Shown here: positions 21,272-59,422 of the stretch, one piece after another
How the letters are laid out: every line of letters starts with the position of its first letter
How positions within the stretch are numbered: position 1 is the stretch's first letter
Origin: Bifidobacterium sp. WK012_4_13
Lineage (GTDB): Bacteria; Actinomycetota; Actinomycetes; Actinomycetales; Bifidobacteriaceae
NCBI RefSeq assembly: GCF_041080835.1
Contig: NZ_CP129683.1
Coordinates: forward strand, 310,001-374,000
Length of the DNA: 64,000 nt
Direction: 5' to 3'
Made by a program: the position numbers and the translations under genes
Notes under the pieces: generated by a model
Database searches by the model: none
What the model was told of the DNA's origin: nothing
Seen by the model: the letters and a program-made list of their open reading frames with translations, nothing else

Positions 21272-23560
21272 ATGGCGGATTCGTACGGCGCAAGGAGCCT
21301 TACGGTTCTCGAAGGTCTCGATGCGGTACGCAAGCGTCCAGGCATGTACATCGGTACGACGGACAGTCAGGGTCTTATGCACTGTCTGTGGGAGATCATC
21401 GATAATTCCGTAGATGAGGCTCTGGCAGGCGTATGCACGAAGATCGTCGTGACCCTGCATGCTGACGGTTCGATCAGCGTCGCGGACAATGGACGTGGCA
21501 TTCCCGTAGACATCGAGCCAAAGACGGGACTGACCGGTGTCGAGGTGGTGCTGACCAAGCTGCATGCCGGAGCGAAGTTCGGCAATGACTCATACAATGC
21601 CGTTGGCGGTCTGCATGGTGTCGGGTCATCTGTCGTGAATGCCTTGAGCTCCCGTCTGGATGTCGAGGTCGATCGCAATGGCAAGACATACAGGATGGAG
21701 TTTCATCAGGGTCATCCTGGCATATTCCAGGACGTAGAGGCGGATAGTCCTTCTCCTGAATCGCATTTCACAAGAACTCGAAAGAACCGTCCGACAGAGT
21801 TGCGCGAAGTTGGCAAGGTCTCGCCGAAGACCACCGGGACTCGCATAAGATATTGGGCGGATCCGGAGATCTTCAATGAAACGGCACGTTTTAGCTACGA
21901 TCAGCTGATCGACAGGGTGCGTCAGACGAGTTTCCTGGTTCCTGGATTGAAGCTTGTTGTGATTGATGAGAACATTCCTGAGAACATTCACGAAGACGTT
22001 CACGAAGACGTTCATGAAGACACTGGCGAGGATGCTGCCGAGAATGGTGTCAGGAACGCTATCGAGGATGTTGATGAGAGCGCTGCTGAAGAAGCTGCTG
22101 AGGAAGCTGGAATATCCGCCGTCTCCGAGACCGAGGCCCATCTCAGTGAGAGCATGCCACTGGTTCCATCCCACCATCGAGTCGTGGAGTTCATGCATGA
22201 GGGCGGTGTCAAGGATTTCGTTGATTTCCTGACCGTCGGCGAAGCCATCAGCGATGTCTGGCATGTTACCGGCGAGGCAAGCTATGAGGAGGAAACGCAG
22301 AAGGTCGAGCCAAACGGCGAACTCAAGGCGGAGAAGGTAAGACGCGTCTGTGGCGTTGATATTGCGATGCGATGGGTCAATGGCTATGAGACGGTCATGA
22401 GAAGCTTCGTCAATGTCGTCGAGACGCCTGGCGGCGGCATGCATGTCGATGGCTATCTGAACGCCCTGACCAGACAGGTCCGCAAATGCGTTGAGGCGAA
22501 TGCCCGCAAGTTCAAGGTCAATCTCAAGGACTCCCACACCAAAATCGAACGTGAGGACATTCTTGCAGGCCTGGTGGTCGTCGTAACCGTGCGCATAGCC
22601 GAACCGCAGTTCCAGGGGCAGACGAAGGACGTTCTGGGAACCGCACAGGTCAAGCCAATCGTCACTCGCATGACCGATAAGCAGTTTGGCGAGATAATCA
22701 ACGGCTCACGACGTGGCTTCAAGGATCAGTCGTTGCGGGTTCTCGACAAGATCGTCGGTGAGATGCACGCCAGAGTTCAGGCCCGCAAGACCAAGGAAGT
22801 GACAAGGCGAAAGAATGCGCTGGAATCCGCTTCCATGCCGGCCAAGCTGTCGGATTCCCAGCCAGGAAACGACGACATTGCAGAATTGTTCATCGTTGAG
22901 GGTGATTCCGCATTGGGAACGGCAAAGGCAGCACGCAATTCGATGTTCCAGGCGCTTCTGCCAATTCGAGGTAAGATACTGAACGTTCAGAAGGCTTCGC
23001 TGAACCAGATGCTTTCGAACAAGGAGTGCGCTGCAATCATCCAGGTCGTCGGTGCCGGCTCTGGGGCGAGCTTTGACATTGAGCAGGCTCGATACAGCAA
23101 GATCATCATGATGACGGATGCCGACGTCGATGGAGCCCATATCAGAATACTTCTGCTGACGCTTTTCTATCGCTATATGAGGCCGCTCATCGAGGCAGGA
23201 CGGGTATATGCAGCCGTGCCACCGTTGCATCGCATCGCATTGGCGGGAAAGCATAAGGGCGAATACATCTATACATACTCCGATGACGAGCTGGCCAAAC
23301 GGCTTTCCGACCTGAAGCGGCAGCGTATTGACTTCCGCGAGGACGTACAGCGCTACAAGGGCCTTGGCGAGATGGACGCGGACCAGCTGGCGGATACCAC
23401 GATGGATCCGAGAACCCGCATGCTGCGTCGAATCCGCATGGAGGACGCGGAAAACGCCTCGGACATCTTCTCGTTGCTCATGGGCGATGAAGTCCCACCT
23501 CGCAAGCAGTTCATCGTCGAGAATGCCGACGATTTCGATCGTTCGAAGATTGACACCTGA
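21272..23560 (+). CDS. parE: DNA topoisomerase IV subunit B (GyrB/ParE family)
   Basis: 762 aa from ATG 21272 (RBS GAGGTAG). The GHKL ATPase domain has LEGLDAVRKRPGMYIGT, EIIDNSVDEAL, DNGRGIPVDI and GGLHGVGSSVVNAL. The Toprim domain has ELFIVEGDSALGTAK and MMTDADVDGAHIR, and the C-terminus QRYKGLGEMD. With the subunit encoded at 26205-28841 it relaxes and decatenates DNA. An acidic insert at about residues 230-300, partly built of four-residue repeats (ENIH, EDVH), interrupts the transducer domain. ParE rather than GyrB is inferred from linkage to rpoD and parC. Confidence 0.92.
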   Translation: MADSYGARSLTVLEGLDAVRKRPGMYIGTTDSQGLMHCLWEIIDNSVDEALAGVCTKIVVTLHADGSISVADNGRGIPVDIEPKTGLTGVEVVLTKLHAGAKFGNDSYNAVGGLHGVGSSVVNALSSRLDVEVDRNGKTYRMEFHQGHPGIFQDVEADSPSPESHFTRTRKNRPTELREVGKVSPKTTGTRIRYWADPEIFNETARFSYDQLIDRVRQTSFLVPGLKLVVIDENIPENIHEDVHEDVHEDTGEDAAENGVRNAIEDVDESAAEEAAEEAGISAVSETEAHLSESMPLVPSHHRVVEFMHEGGVKDFVDFLTVGEAISDVWHVTGEASYEEETQKVEPNGELKAEKVRRVCGVDIAMRWVNGYETVMRSFVNVVETPGGGMHVDGYLNALTRQVRKCVEANARKFKVNLKDSHTKIEREDILAGLVVVVTVRIAEPQFQGQTKDVLGTAQVKPIVTRMTDKQFGEIINGSRRGFKDQSLRVLDKIVGEMHARVQARKTKEVTRRKNALESASMPAKLSDSQPGNDDIAELFIVEGDSALGTAKAARNSMFQALLPIRGKILNVQKASLNQMLSNKECAAIIQVVGAGSGASFDIEQARYSKIIMMTDADVDGAHIRILLLTLFYRYMRPLIEAGRVYAAVPPLHRIALAGKHKGEYIYTYSDDELAKRLSDLKRQRIDFREDVQRYKGLGEMDADQLADTTMDPRTRMLRRIRMEDAENASDIFSLLMGDEVPPRKQFIVENADDFDRSKIDT
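21968..22027 (+). repeat. 12-bp tandem repeat inside parE
   Basis: Five 12-bp units (GAGAACATTCCT, GAGAACATTCAC, GAAGACGTTCAC, GAAGACGTTCAT, GAAGACACTGGC) encode ENIP-ENIH-EDVH-EDVH-EDTG at the start of the acidic insertion. Confidence 0.8.
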
Positions 23561-23595
23561 TTTACGGGCATCTCTGACGGGTCTGAAAGCCTTGC

Positions 23596-23705
23596 TTCAA
23601 GTTTTTGGCACTTGCACAGGTATGGAAGCGCTGAATCCTTGAAATGGTCACCGCATTATGGCCGAATGGCGTGCCTTATACATGGGCAAGTGCCAAAAAC
23701 TTGAA
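23596..23705. repeat. Long-stem intergenic element, copy A (110 bp)
   Basis: A perfect 20-bp inverted repeat (TTCAAGTTTTTGGCACTTGC at 23596-23615 and its complement at 23686-23705) encloses 70 bp. Pairing extends imperfectly inwards (CAGGTAT with ATACATG). It sits between the parE stop and the convergent marR gene. Related elements occur at 41324-41433 and 46049-46153. No T-run follows either arm. Confidence 0.8.
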
Positions 23706-23756
23706 ATTTCGAACAGAGTATGTCGGATAAGAGCTCTACAGCGGTGATGGAGGTGG

Positions 23757-38653: not shown

Positions 38654-38679
38654 CAATCTGACGACCCGCCTTGATTCAA

Positions 38680-38736
38680 CGTGGCTTCCGCGTTGAATCA
38701 AGGTTGAATCAAGGCTGAATCAACGCGGAAGCCACG
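38680..38736. terminator. Large bidirectional hairpin between the BASS gene and the convergent DUF218 gene
   Basis: Perfect 21-bp arms (CGTGGCTTCCGCG plus TTGAATCA and their complement) enclose a 15-nt loop that itself carries another TTGAATCAAGGC copy. A further TTGATTCAA lies just before the left arm, so TTGAATCAA words occur four times in 65 bp. Probably terminates both convergent genes. Confidence 0.75.
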
Positions 38737-38748
38737 CGGAATTATCGA

Positions 38749-41307: not shown

Positions 41308-41323
41308 ACGCGCTGACCCATAT

Positions 41324-41433
41324 TGCAAGTTTTTGGCACTTGCTGAAGTAGCATCGTCCGAATTCGTTGCGGGTCGGTGCGGTGTCATGCCGATTATCGG
41401 CCCATCTACTTCAGCAAGTGCCCAAAACTTGCA
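41324..41433. repeat. Long-stem intergenic element, copy B (110 bp)
   Basis: 28-bp inverted arms with one mismatch: TGCAAGTTTTTGGCACTTGC then TGAAGTAG at 41324-41351, and the complement at 41406-41433. The spacer is 54 bp. It lies between the convergent GT4 and GH3 genes. Its outer arm is nearly identical to copy A (23596-23705), but the spacer differs. Confidence 0.85.
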
Positions 41434-41511
41434 TGTTCACCGTGATTGCACGTTCACTCTGCTTGCATGTTCACCGTAAAACCGACACCGCCAGTAACAA
41501 TGGAGCGCCGA

Positions 41512-42828
41512 TCATCGGATCAGCTGCCTTTCATACTTCAATGTCAGCACGCGAGTCGCAGAGTCGGCGACCCTCTGTCTGAACGCCGTGTCTGATTGGG
41601 CCGTGGCTATGATGCCGTCGAGTATGCGATCGATGTATCCCGGCGCGTCAGCGCATATCAGATCGCCGCCCGCCTGGATGAAGCGCACACCCAGCTCATT
41701 CGCAGGAATATCAGCAAGCGCCTGCGCCGAGAGGGAATCGGATACTATGATGCCCTGATAGTTCTTGCCATCGCGCAGATGTCCTTGCATGATGGTTGAA
41801 GAAAACGCCGCAGGATTGCCGGGATCGATTTTCGAATACGTCGCCAACGACATCATGACCATCGCAGGATCCGACTTCAGCGCCTCATCGAAGGCGGATA
41901 TCTCCTCGCCGTCCAGTGTGGTCGTGCCATCGGTGATTCCTGAATTCGTAAGATCGGTGTTCCCGGCAACCGCACCGAGCCCTGGGTAATGCTTGATTGC
42001 AGTTGATATTCCTGCCTGGGACATCCCCTCGATGAACGCTCTCGCATGCAAGGCATTGCCTGAGGCGTCCAGACCAAAATCACGATTCAGCGCGCCGATT
42101 GCGGCGTTTGCCGAGCGCGGCTGTGTCTGGACGGTATCCACGGATGGTGCAAAATCAACGTTGATTCCTGCGGATCGGAGCTGTGCGCCCCATGTCTTGG
42201 CATTGGACTCAAGGCTGTCCGCGCTCATCTGCCCTTGAACCACGGCACTTGGCATGACAGAGAAGCCAGGACCTTTCAAGTGCTGGACAGTGCCGCCTTC
42301 CTGATCCGTGGCGAAGAGAAGACCATCGCCGTCATCGACGTATGACTGGATTTCGCTGATTTCCTCATGAACTGCGTCGATGCCCGCTGTGCTATTGCCG
42401 AACAGCAGCACCGAACCTATGTGGCGACCCTGAATATCCTGACGTATCGCCGTGGGCGGCGTTCCTGCCTGAAGAGGAACCATCACCAATTGGGCGGCCT
42501 GATCCTGAATCGACATATTCGCCGTGCGTGCCCTCGCTCGCTGTGCAGCCTGCTGTCTGCCGCTGAGCTGGGGTTCCGGAGCCGCAGTCCTTGCCATGTC
42601 GGACTTCATGGACGATGGAACCGATTCAGAGCCTGATGCCGAGCTTCCTGTGTGAGGGGAACCGATCTGCGTCGCACTGTGCGAGGCGCATGCGCTGAGC
42701 GAGAGCAGTGCCAGAACTGCGACAGAGATTCCGAGCAGTCGACCCAGGTGTGCGAACGCACTGAATCCATGTCGGTGTCTATGCAGAATAAGCACAGCAT
42801 AAGATGGGATATCTTTAAGCTCATTCAT
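41512..42828 (-). CDS. Glycoside hydrolase family 3 lipoprotein (NagZ-like)
   Basis: 438 aa from ATG 42828. The N-terminus has a long hydrophobic helix ending in lipobox LSAC (Cys47), so the enzyme is anchored outside the membrane, followed by a Ser-rich linker. The GH3 barrel shows LLFATDQEGGTVQHL, TAIKHYPGLGAVAGNTD and the nucleophile segment GIIVSDSL. NagZ-type enzymes remove N-acetylhexosamine. The Asp-His acid/base dyad of NagZ (usually DSH after KHFPGHG) is not present; NTDLTNSG is found instead. It may have another specificity or be a non-catalytic relative. Confidence 0.8.
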   Translation of the reverse strand: MNELKDIPSYAVLILHRHRHGFSAFAHLGRLLGISVAVLALLSLSACASHSATQIGSPHTGSSASGSESVPSSMKSDMARTAAPEPQLSGRQQAAQRARARTANMSIQDQAAQLVMVPLQAGTPPTAIRQDIQGRHIGSVLLFGNSTAGIDAVHEEISEIQSYVDDGDGLLFATDQEGGTVQHLKGPGFSVMPSAVVQGQMSADSLESNAKTWGAQLRSAGINVDFAPSVDTVQTQPRSANAAIGALNRDFGLDASGNALHARAFIEGMSQAGISTAIKHYPGLGAVAGNTDLTNSGITDGTTTLDGEEISAFDEALKSDPAMVMMSLATYSKIDPGNPAAFSSTIMQGHLRDGKNYQGIIVSDSLSAQALADIPANELGVRFIQAGGDLICADAPGYIDRILDGIIATAQSDTAFRQRVADSATRVLTLKYERQLIR

Positions 42829-46038: not shown

Positions 46039-46048
46039 TCCGAGATTC

Positions 46049-46153
46049 CGAGTTTTGCGGCAATTGCTGAGTATCTCATGGCGAAAACGGTGAAAGCTTG
46101 TCCCCTTTAAGCCAAAAAACGACTGTGATACTTCGCAATTGCCGCAAAACTCG
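46049..46153. repeat. Long-stem intergenic element, copy C (105 bp)
   Basis: 27-bp inverted arms with two mismatches: CGAGTTTTGCGGCAATTGC then TGAGTATC at 46049-46075, and the complementary arm at 46127-46153. The spacer is 51 bp. It lies between the UPF0182 gene and pth. The arm matches copies A and B in layout (AGTTTTxxGGCAxTTGC) but several bases changed on both sides together, keeping the stem. Confidence 0.8.
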
Positions 46154-46228
46154 ACTTCTCATGCGCTCTGCGTCATCTCAGTTGGTACAATCTGAGAGGT
46201 TTTGTGCAAGAAAGATTGGTTTTGAGGC

Positions 46229-59381: not shown

Positions 59382-59422
59382 AAGGGATCCTGTCGGATGA
59401 TCTACATCCGACAGGATCCCTT
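59382..59422. terminator. Strong bidirectional hairpin between the histidine kinase and whiB
   Basis: Perfect 18-bp stem AAGGGATCCTGTCGGATG and its complement with a 5-nt loop. On the minus strand it is followed by a pyrimidine-rich TTCTTC, fitting whiB termination; the kinase ends 143 bp before it, in a stretch with no gene. Confidence 0.8.

Follow-up and report, generated by a model that had tools for sequence, protein, structure and literature searches.

Dispersed 120-bp palindromes beside a Vsr-like nuclease gene in Bifidobacterium: a candidate family of miniature mobile elements

In systems formed by REPINs (repetitive extragenic palindromic doublets forming hairpins) and RAYTs (REP-associated tyrosine transposases), as described in PMC3116915 and PMC3733652, extragenic elements consist of two inverted ends that are highly conserved and a spacer that varies more in sequence but hardly in length, and several sequence groups per genome are found near specific enzyme genes that are themselves flanked by repeats. 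The present analysis concerns three intergenic hairpins, copies A, B and C, in a stretch of 64,000 nucleotides from Bifidobacterium sp. WK012_4_13 (contig NZ_CP129683.1, positions 310,001 to 374,000, forward strand; hereafter the window), which an original prediction had described as a three-copy family of long stems. We propose, with a probability of about 0.64, that A, B and C belong to a family of miniature mobile palindromes, each about 120 bp long, which resemble REPINs and are served by a fast-evolving Vsr-like nuclease; we infer that this nuclease moves the elements.

As in REPINs, the ends of the Bifidobacterium elements are inverted and conserved, the spacer is less conserved and the many copies are extragenic. 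Moreover, the gene for the nuclease-like protein is flanked by elements of a particular arm sequence ("dialect") (7 of 7 full-length genes), a likeness that is analogous only, as the enzyme family differs. The Vsr-like PD-(D/E)XK enzyme is unrelated to Y1 transposases, the flanks of the elements are phase-locked and the host is a Bifidobacterium. No Y1/HUH transposase was found in the window genome (no match to PF01797 at E ≤ 1; 10 of 14 control genomes were positive), and the consensus carries neither a GTAG nor a CGTC tag; its inner box reads AAGTAT, with the last T replaced by G in 11 of 52 copies. Since the plan matches REPIN/RAYT and the enzyme test fails, the elements appear REPIN-like in their working and different in their enzyme. 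The nuclease is related to I-Bth0305I (3R3P) and Vsr by the fold and profile of its C-terminal domain; it differs in that its gene lies between dispersed palindromes, was not seen in an intron or intein, and encodes an N-terminal half without a clear match. The protein also resembles the DUF559 and MTES_1575 families at sub-threshold scores. To our knowledge, no dispersed repeats have been linked to DUF559 proteins, and a literature search found none; a search for earlier descriptions of such Bifidobacterium elements was likewise negative.

The palindrome family and its flanks

The whole window genome (G000; 2.47 Mb in two contigs) was searched for single arms. The arm shared by copies A and B (dialect own1) gave, at up to 3 mismatches, 67 and 67 matches on the two strands, versus 7 and 9 for a reversed control, and the arm of copy C (dialect own2) gave 47 and 45, versus 0 and 1. 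Pairing of arms in the stretches analysed yielded 63 own1 and 45 own2 elements. The resulting 108 copies are a lower bound, as a few degenerate ones (e.g., L087) may fall outside the count; a coding-like false pair, L050, was dropped from own1. In 57 of 61 scanned sources (the false pair at L050 among them) the A/B arm is present as a pair with a spacing of about 100 bp, the remaining four having weak, unpaired matches only. The proposed family is real, as are the further copies expected of it in this genome, and with at least 108 members it is far larger than three; copy C, which had been regarded as a drifted copy, does differ in its arm and represents a second dialect with 45 members.

No element of the 108 extends more than 60 bp into a called gene. 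Thirty lie between convergent, 47 between tandem and 7 between divergent genes (24 have an uncalled side); for comparison, the intergenic gaps of at least 100 bp in the window are 3 convergent, 18 tandem and 9 divergent. At L064:607-2730, three own1 elements lie within 2.1 kb around two other genes, which from their translations appear by eye to encode a short-chain-dehydrogenase-like and a HigA-like helix-turn-helix protein.

The own1 consensus, built from 52 copies of modal length, starts (C)GAGATTGCAAGTTTTTGGCACTTGCC.AAGTATAAA... and continues inward with A/T runs near positions 35 and 45 and a CG..CG centre, followed by the mirror image; own2 follows this plan, its arm containing TTTTGCGGCAATT. 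The spacers, originally regarded as unrelated, share the AAGTAT box, the A/T runs, which occupy non-pairing interior positions, and a CGRYCG-like centre. Most elements have cores of 101-103 bp (own1, 57 of 63) or 100-102 bp (own2, 44 of 45); the other lengths are 112 bp (5 copies), 123 bp (1) and 113 bp (1). Similarly, the 62 exact pairs found in genome G024 with a pattern admitting 77-107 bp measure 84 (2), 94-95 (10) or 104-106 bp (50), with none between. With steps of 10-11 bp, the two arms stay on one face of the helix. Median nearest-neighbour identity between copies is 0.65 and 0.63 in the two dialects, versus 0.54 in column-shuffled controls, and the copies are therefore related beyond their shared consensus. 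Compensated arm changes number 69 in one dialect (shuffled mean 34, maximum 50) and 30 in the other (mean 8, maximum 19), under a shuffle that leaves the relatedness of the copies in. As deviations in one arm are matched in the other above chance, the palindrome itself is maintained, by selection or by copying.

With about 120 bp, terminal inverted repeats, no coding content, dispersal between genes and copies related to one another, the elements could be ordinary miniature inverted-repeat transposable elements (MITEs) derived from a DDE-type transposon that is lost or has escaped notice, with the nuclease gene as a passenger between two copies. We regard this as improbable. Direct repeats of at least 5 bp at the element ends were found in at most 2 of the 108 copies at any boundary and length; the excesses at k = 2-4 fall inside the palindrome, although a target duplication of 2-4 bp is possible. 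The arms pair at about 100 bp as counted above, and the same gene family lies between elements in all four element-bearing genomes, with matching dialects. The elements further differ from MITEs in lacking a target duplication of note and in joining highly diverged interiors to fixed ends; no longer parent with these ends was seen, and element-gene-element cassettes exist.

Outside the elements, A/T content oscillates with a period of 10.5 bp in register with the element. Over the 216 flanks of the 108 elements, power was 0.266, whereas 1000 random-shift controls reached 0.013 at most; the pooled amplitude exceeded the 95% null in every 21-bp bin out to 138-159 bp (0.031 versus 0.026 in the last bin), single dialects falling below that null in some far bins. 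The corresponding values were 0.241 versus 0.044 for the B. aquikefiri elements in the stretches analysed (62 flanks), 0.28 versus 0.11 for G006 (15 elements, 30 flanks) and 0.57 versus 0.12 for G024 (15 of 62 elements, 30 flanks). Ordinary genomic periodicity was considered as a source of the phasing and does not account for the signal.

Occupied and empty sites in related genomes

By one neighbouring protein, the nearest named relatives of the window genome are B. aquikefiri (88% identity; genomes G005 and G027, taken as LMG 28769) and B. psychraerophilum (73%), the species itself being possibly absent from the collection. The same design, in other dialects, was found in B. aquikefiri and two further species. 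In B. psychraerophilum and B. subtile no exact pairs were found with the open pattern described below for B. aquikefiri, and the inner box occurred 0 and 1 times, versus 3 and 0 in controls. A survey of this box in 151 genomes of the family was clear for the window genome (35 versus 2), B. aquikefiri G005 (21 versus 3) and G006 (35 versus 4); AT-rich G069 gave 17 versus 6, and G024 only 4 versus 2 despite its 62 elements of its own dialect, indicating that the survey misses other designs.

Of the 108 sites, 52 (28 own1, 24 own2) have an aligned counterpart in B. aquikefiri: 21 hold an element (8 own1, 13 own2), 14 are unambiguously empty and the remaining 17 show a long gap, in six cases with a possible relic arm. 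Ten of the 13 occupied own2 sites (all but L207, L222 and L227) have a homologous interior, which is in the same orientation at seven and inverted in place at three. The three inversions (L196/L238, L199/L235 and L226/L272) leave the order of the flanks unchanged; they could reflect recombination of the two arms or a switch of template from one arm to the other. Plastid-genome papers reportedly treat small inversions in combination with hairpins.

At the eight occupied own1 sites no interior is homologous and B. aquikefiri has different arms, namely TTCATTGTGAACT at L042, L048, L059 and L081, GTGGCAATT at L043 and L061, GCGGCAA at L079 and an uncertain arm at L040. The GTGGCAATT arm of B. aquikefiri differs from GCGGCAATT of the window genome and G006 by one C-to-T change in both arms. 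With a pattern left open at that position, the T was found in 9 of 9 exact pairs of B. aquikefiri, and two orthologous sites of that species (L191 and L079) read GCGGCA; the change to T is concerted in most of this species' GYGGCAATT arms. Overall, own1 copies look old by their interiors and young by their sites. A different inverted repeat of B. aquikefiri, of the CTCGAGCGAGCGCAGCGAGTCGAGAG type and unrelated to the palindrome family, was seen at L106:5859-6013 and also occurs near other sites.

The flanks of orthologous sites carry the periodicity as well. Where no element was recognised in B. aquikefiri (23 sites), the aligned flanks gave 0.095 (0.067-0.122), with no bias at discordant sites (-0.005 ± 0.036). 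At 13 of 14 sites with gaps too short for an element, the value was 0.071 (0.031-0.110), versus 0.091 in the window genome, discordant sites favouring the latter by 0.064 ± 0.046; occupied sites gave 0.073 versus 0.095 (window genome favoured by 0.086 ± 0.037). In G006, six short-gap sites gave 0.085 ± 0.021 and four other non-occupied sites 0.036 ± 0.028 (window genome 0.086 for both), and eight occupied sites gave 0.099 (window genome 0.058). As periodicity is kept at element-free orthologous sites, the phasing largely predates the element or does not need it; later reinforcement after insertion is possible.

These comparisons also bear on the proposal that the elements are domesticated sites, kept because they are useful. 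A nuclease-derived protein would then only bind the arms and bend or wrap about 350 bp, serving nucleoid organisation or supercoil relief near gene ends. The position near gene 3' ends, with few elements between divergent genes (7/108), the extreme conservation of arms around diverged interiors, the phased flanks and the homologous interiors at most occupied own2 sites fit this proposal. We consider it unlikely, since B. aquikefiri has an empty site, a long gap or a different element where own1 copies stand, the phasing occurs at sites that lack the element, dialects turn over fast and the presumed active-site residues of the protein described below are invariant.

The nuclease-like gene between the elements

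Two close pairs of elements in the window genome enclose paralogous genes for proteins of 275 aa, L038:788-1615 (own1) and L222:695-1522 (own2). Among 27 genomes of the genus, the protein was found twice in G000, twice in G005, twice in full length and once weakly in G006, once in G024 (42%) and once weakly in G023 (29%); the other 22 have none, and its close relatives are confined to the four element-bearing genomes. An element stands on each side of all seven full-length genes in these four genomes, five pairs being found by inverted-repeat search and two completed by eye (second element in the L346 and L347 sequences), and the two elements beside a given gene share a dialect (or, in one case, have close variants of it). 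The dialects flanking the gene are GTTGCCTTT and TTCATTGTGAACTT in G006, GTGTAGGGATT in G024, and TTCATTGTGAACT (one side degenerate) and TTTTGCGGCC/TTTTGTTGCC in G005. The own1 pattern is clear in G000 alone of the 27 genomes and TTCATTGTGAACT in G005 and G006 alone; GTGTAGGGATT is found in G024 alone of five. Dialects thus follow genes, with exceptions. A shorter, distant DUF559-like protein is found in G006 and G023 (L352 and L348), and no such pair of elements was found around it.

The C-terminal domain of the protein has the fold of the Vsr-type homing endonuclease I-Bth0305I, a PD-(D/E)XK enzyme, by fold and profile relation. Acidic and H/Q/R residues are conserved, and the presumed active-site residues are invariant. 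The N-terminal half is variable and more diverged than the C-terminal half; two proteins with the TTCATTG dialect in common are 86% identical. Both proteins of the window genome fall below the Pfam cut-offs for MTES_1575 and DUF559 (own1, 24.5/38.2 and 20.1/20.6 bits; own2, 19 and 18.3 bits).

The own2 nuclease locus (L349) is syntenic with L345 of G006 and L351 of B. aquikefiri. Its left flank has 86 and 85% DNA identity to these loci, while the proteins are 50 and 47% identical and the arm dialects differ; its right flank is 67% identical to L345, and in L351 only 105 bp were matched. This contrast suggests that the locus may have undergone either very fast divergence or an exchange of cassettes.

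A nuclease with its own recognition arm could also belong to a genome-defence or addiction module that cuts the arm in foreign DNA, or once a protecting factor is lost, the dispersed arms being a by-product. There is little room beside the nuclease gene in the space between its two elements, and the host would bear dozens of cut sites; this is the least probable of the alternatives considered.

The window copies and the proposed mechanism

The coordinates of the three window copies are given in Table 1. As originally reported, they start 36, 17 and 11 bp after plus-strand open reading frames ending at 23560, 41307 and 46038, and no U-tract follows any of the three stems. In B. aquikefiri, the sites orthologous to A and B are empty, with gaps of 84 and 75 bp, and the place of C holds an element with a homologous interior, in which both arms are of the GTGGCAATT type instead of GCGGCAATT.

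Table 1. Positions of the palindromes and of selected flanks in the window.
Feature	Positions	Strand	Description
Copy A	23591..23710	.	Dialect TTTTTGGCACTT (own1); core AGT..ACT 102 bp; between convergent genes
Copy B	41319..41438	.	Dialect TTTTTGGCACTT (own1), other arm TTTTGGGCACTT; core 102 bp; between convergent genes
Copy C	46042..46160	.	Dialect TTTTGCGGCAATT (own2); core 101 bp; directly 3' of stop codon, upstream of next plus-strand gene
Flank of A	23470..23590	.	Within phase-locked A/T periodicity (a family property that a single copy cannot show)
Flank of B	41439..41560	.	Within phase-locked A/T periodicity (a family property that a single copy cannot show)

Two other inverted-repeat features were seen in the window, a cluster of overlapping repeats made of TTGATTCAACG units at 38668-38742 (I2, I6, I14) and a perfect 18-bp repeat with a 5-base loop at 59382-59422 (I5).

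The RNA of the three copies folds more strongly than shuffled sequences (z = -5.1, -9.3 and -8.5 for A, B and C). Together with the compensated arm changes and the position shortly after stop codons, this would be expected of a structured RNA at transcript 3' ends, acting as an mRNA stabiliser, an RNase III site or a small RNA, as the original prediction had also considered. However, constraint reaches about 140 bp beyond the hairpin on both sides at the helical period of DNA, lengths jump by helical turns, non-pairing interior positions share A/T runs and dialects track the nuclease-like gene; in Rfam, no match was found at the window elements, RNase P and one tRNA being the only hits in the window at gathering scores. 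An RNA role is therefore highly improbable and is not needed to explain the elements. The argument that the stem is kept while its sequence drifts holds within dialects, where compensated changes exceed chance, whereas the difference between A/B and C lies between dialects and, as every dialect goes with a nuclease-like gene of its own, does not have to reflect selection on an RNA structure. The suggestion of a REP- or MITE-like element has fared better, given many dispersed and mutually related copies, lineage-specific sites and a dedicated linked gene.

Several observations weigh against a nuclease-driven mobile palindrome. No transposition, binding or cutting was observed. The own1 interiors mostly differ more from one another than orthologous own2 interiors differ between species, and B. 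aquikefiri nevertheless lacks the own1 copies, the reverse of what recent plain copying would predict. Loss of an older element from the relative's empty sites is possible. In the own1 short-gap subset (8 sites), the periodicity in B. aquikefiri is 0.049 (0.010-0.094) versus 0.096 in the window genome, which is favoured by 0.166 ± 0.069 at discordant sites; given this lower value at strictly empty sites, part of the phasing may have been gained after insertion. Close pairs of elements also flank other genes in the window genome (L064), and flanking alone is thus not specific. For two sets of elements, GTGGCAATT in B. aquikefiri and GCGGCAATT in G006, the genome contains no gene flanked by precisely that arm. 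Finally, by Foldseek alone the best match of the protein is I-Bth0305I at E = 7e-3, with none below E = 0.001.

Under the mobile palindrome that we favour, the N-terminal half of the nuclease would recognise the dialect-specific arm, and two protein molecules would bind the two arms, set a fixed number of helical turns apart, with phased A/T runs assisting the bending of the DNA. The C-terminal half may then cut at or near the element, after which host repair would copy the element into intergenic DNA. The target, frequently close to the 3' end of a gene, would be DNA with phasing or curvature of its own and would not acquire a long duplication. Versions of the nuclease could drift, switch to a different arm dialect and give rise to a further population of elements.

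Whether the family represents a new class of mobile DNA is evenly balanced in our judgement. Such a class would consist of palindromes spread by a Vsr-type nuclease and not by a transposase, with one fast-changing nuclease per dialect, insertion guided by the rotational phase of curved DNA, and cassettes that have swapped or drifted in dialect at the same locus in three species. If this is true, the REPIN/RAYT lifestyle, in which a single-copy enzyme supports a large population of tiny palindromes, would have arisen a second time with an unrelated nuclease. The family would also provide a defined pair of enzyme and site, available in naturally matched variants, for studying how repair-type nucleases become mobilising enzymes, and its phase-locked flanks would make the choice of sites by DNA curvature directly testable.
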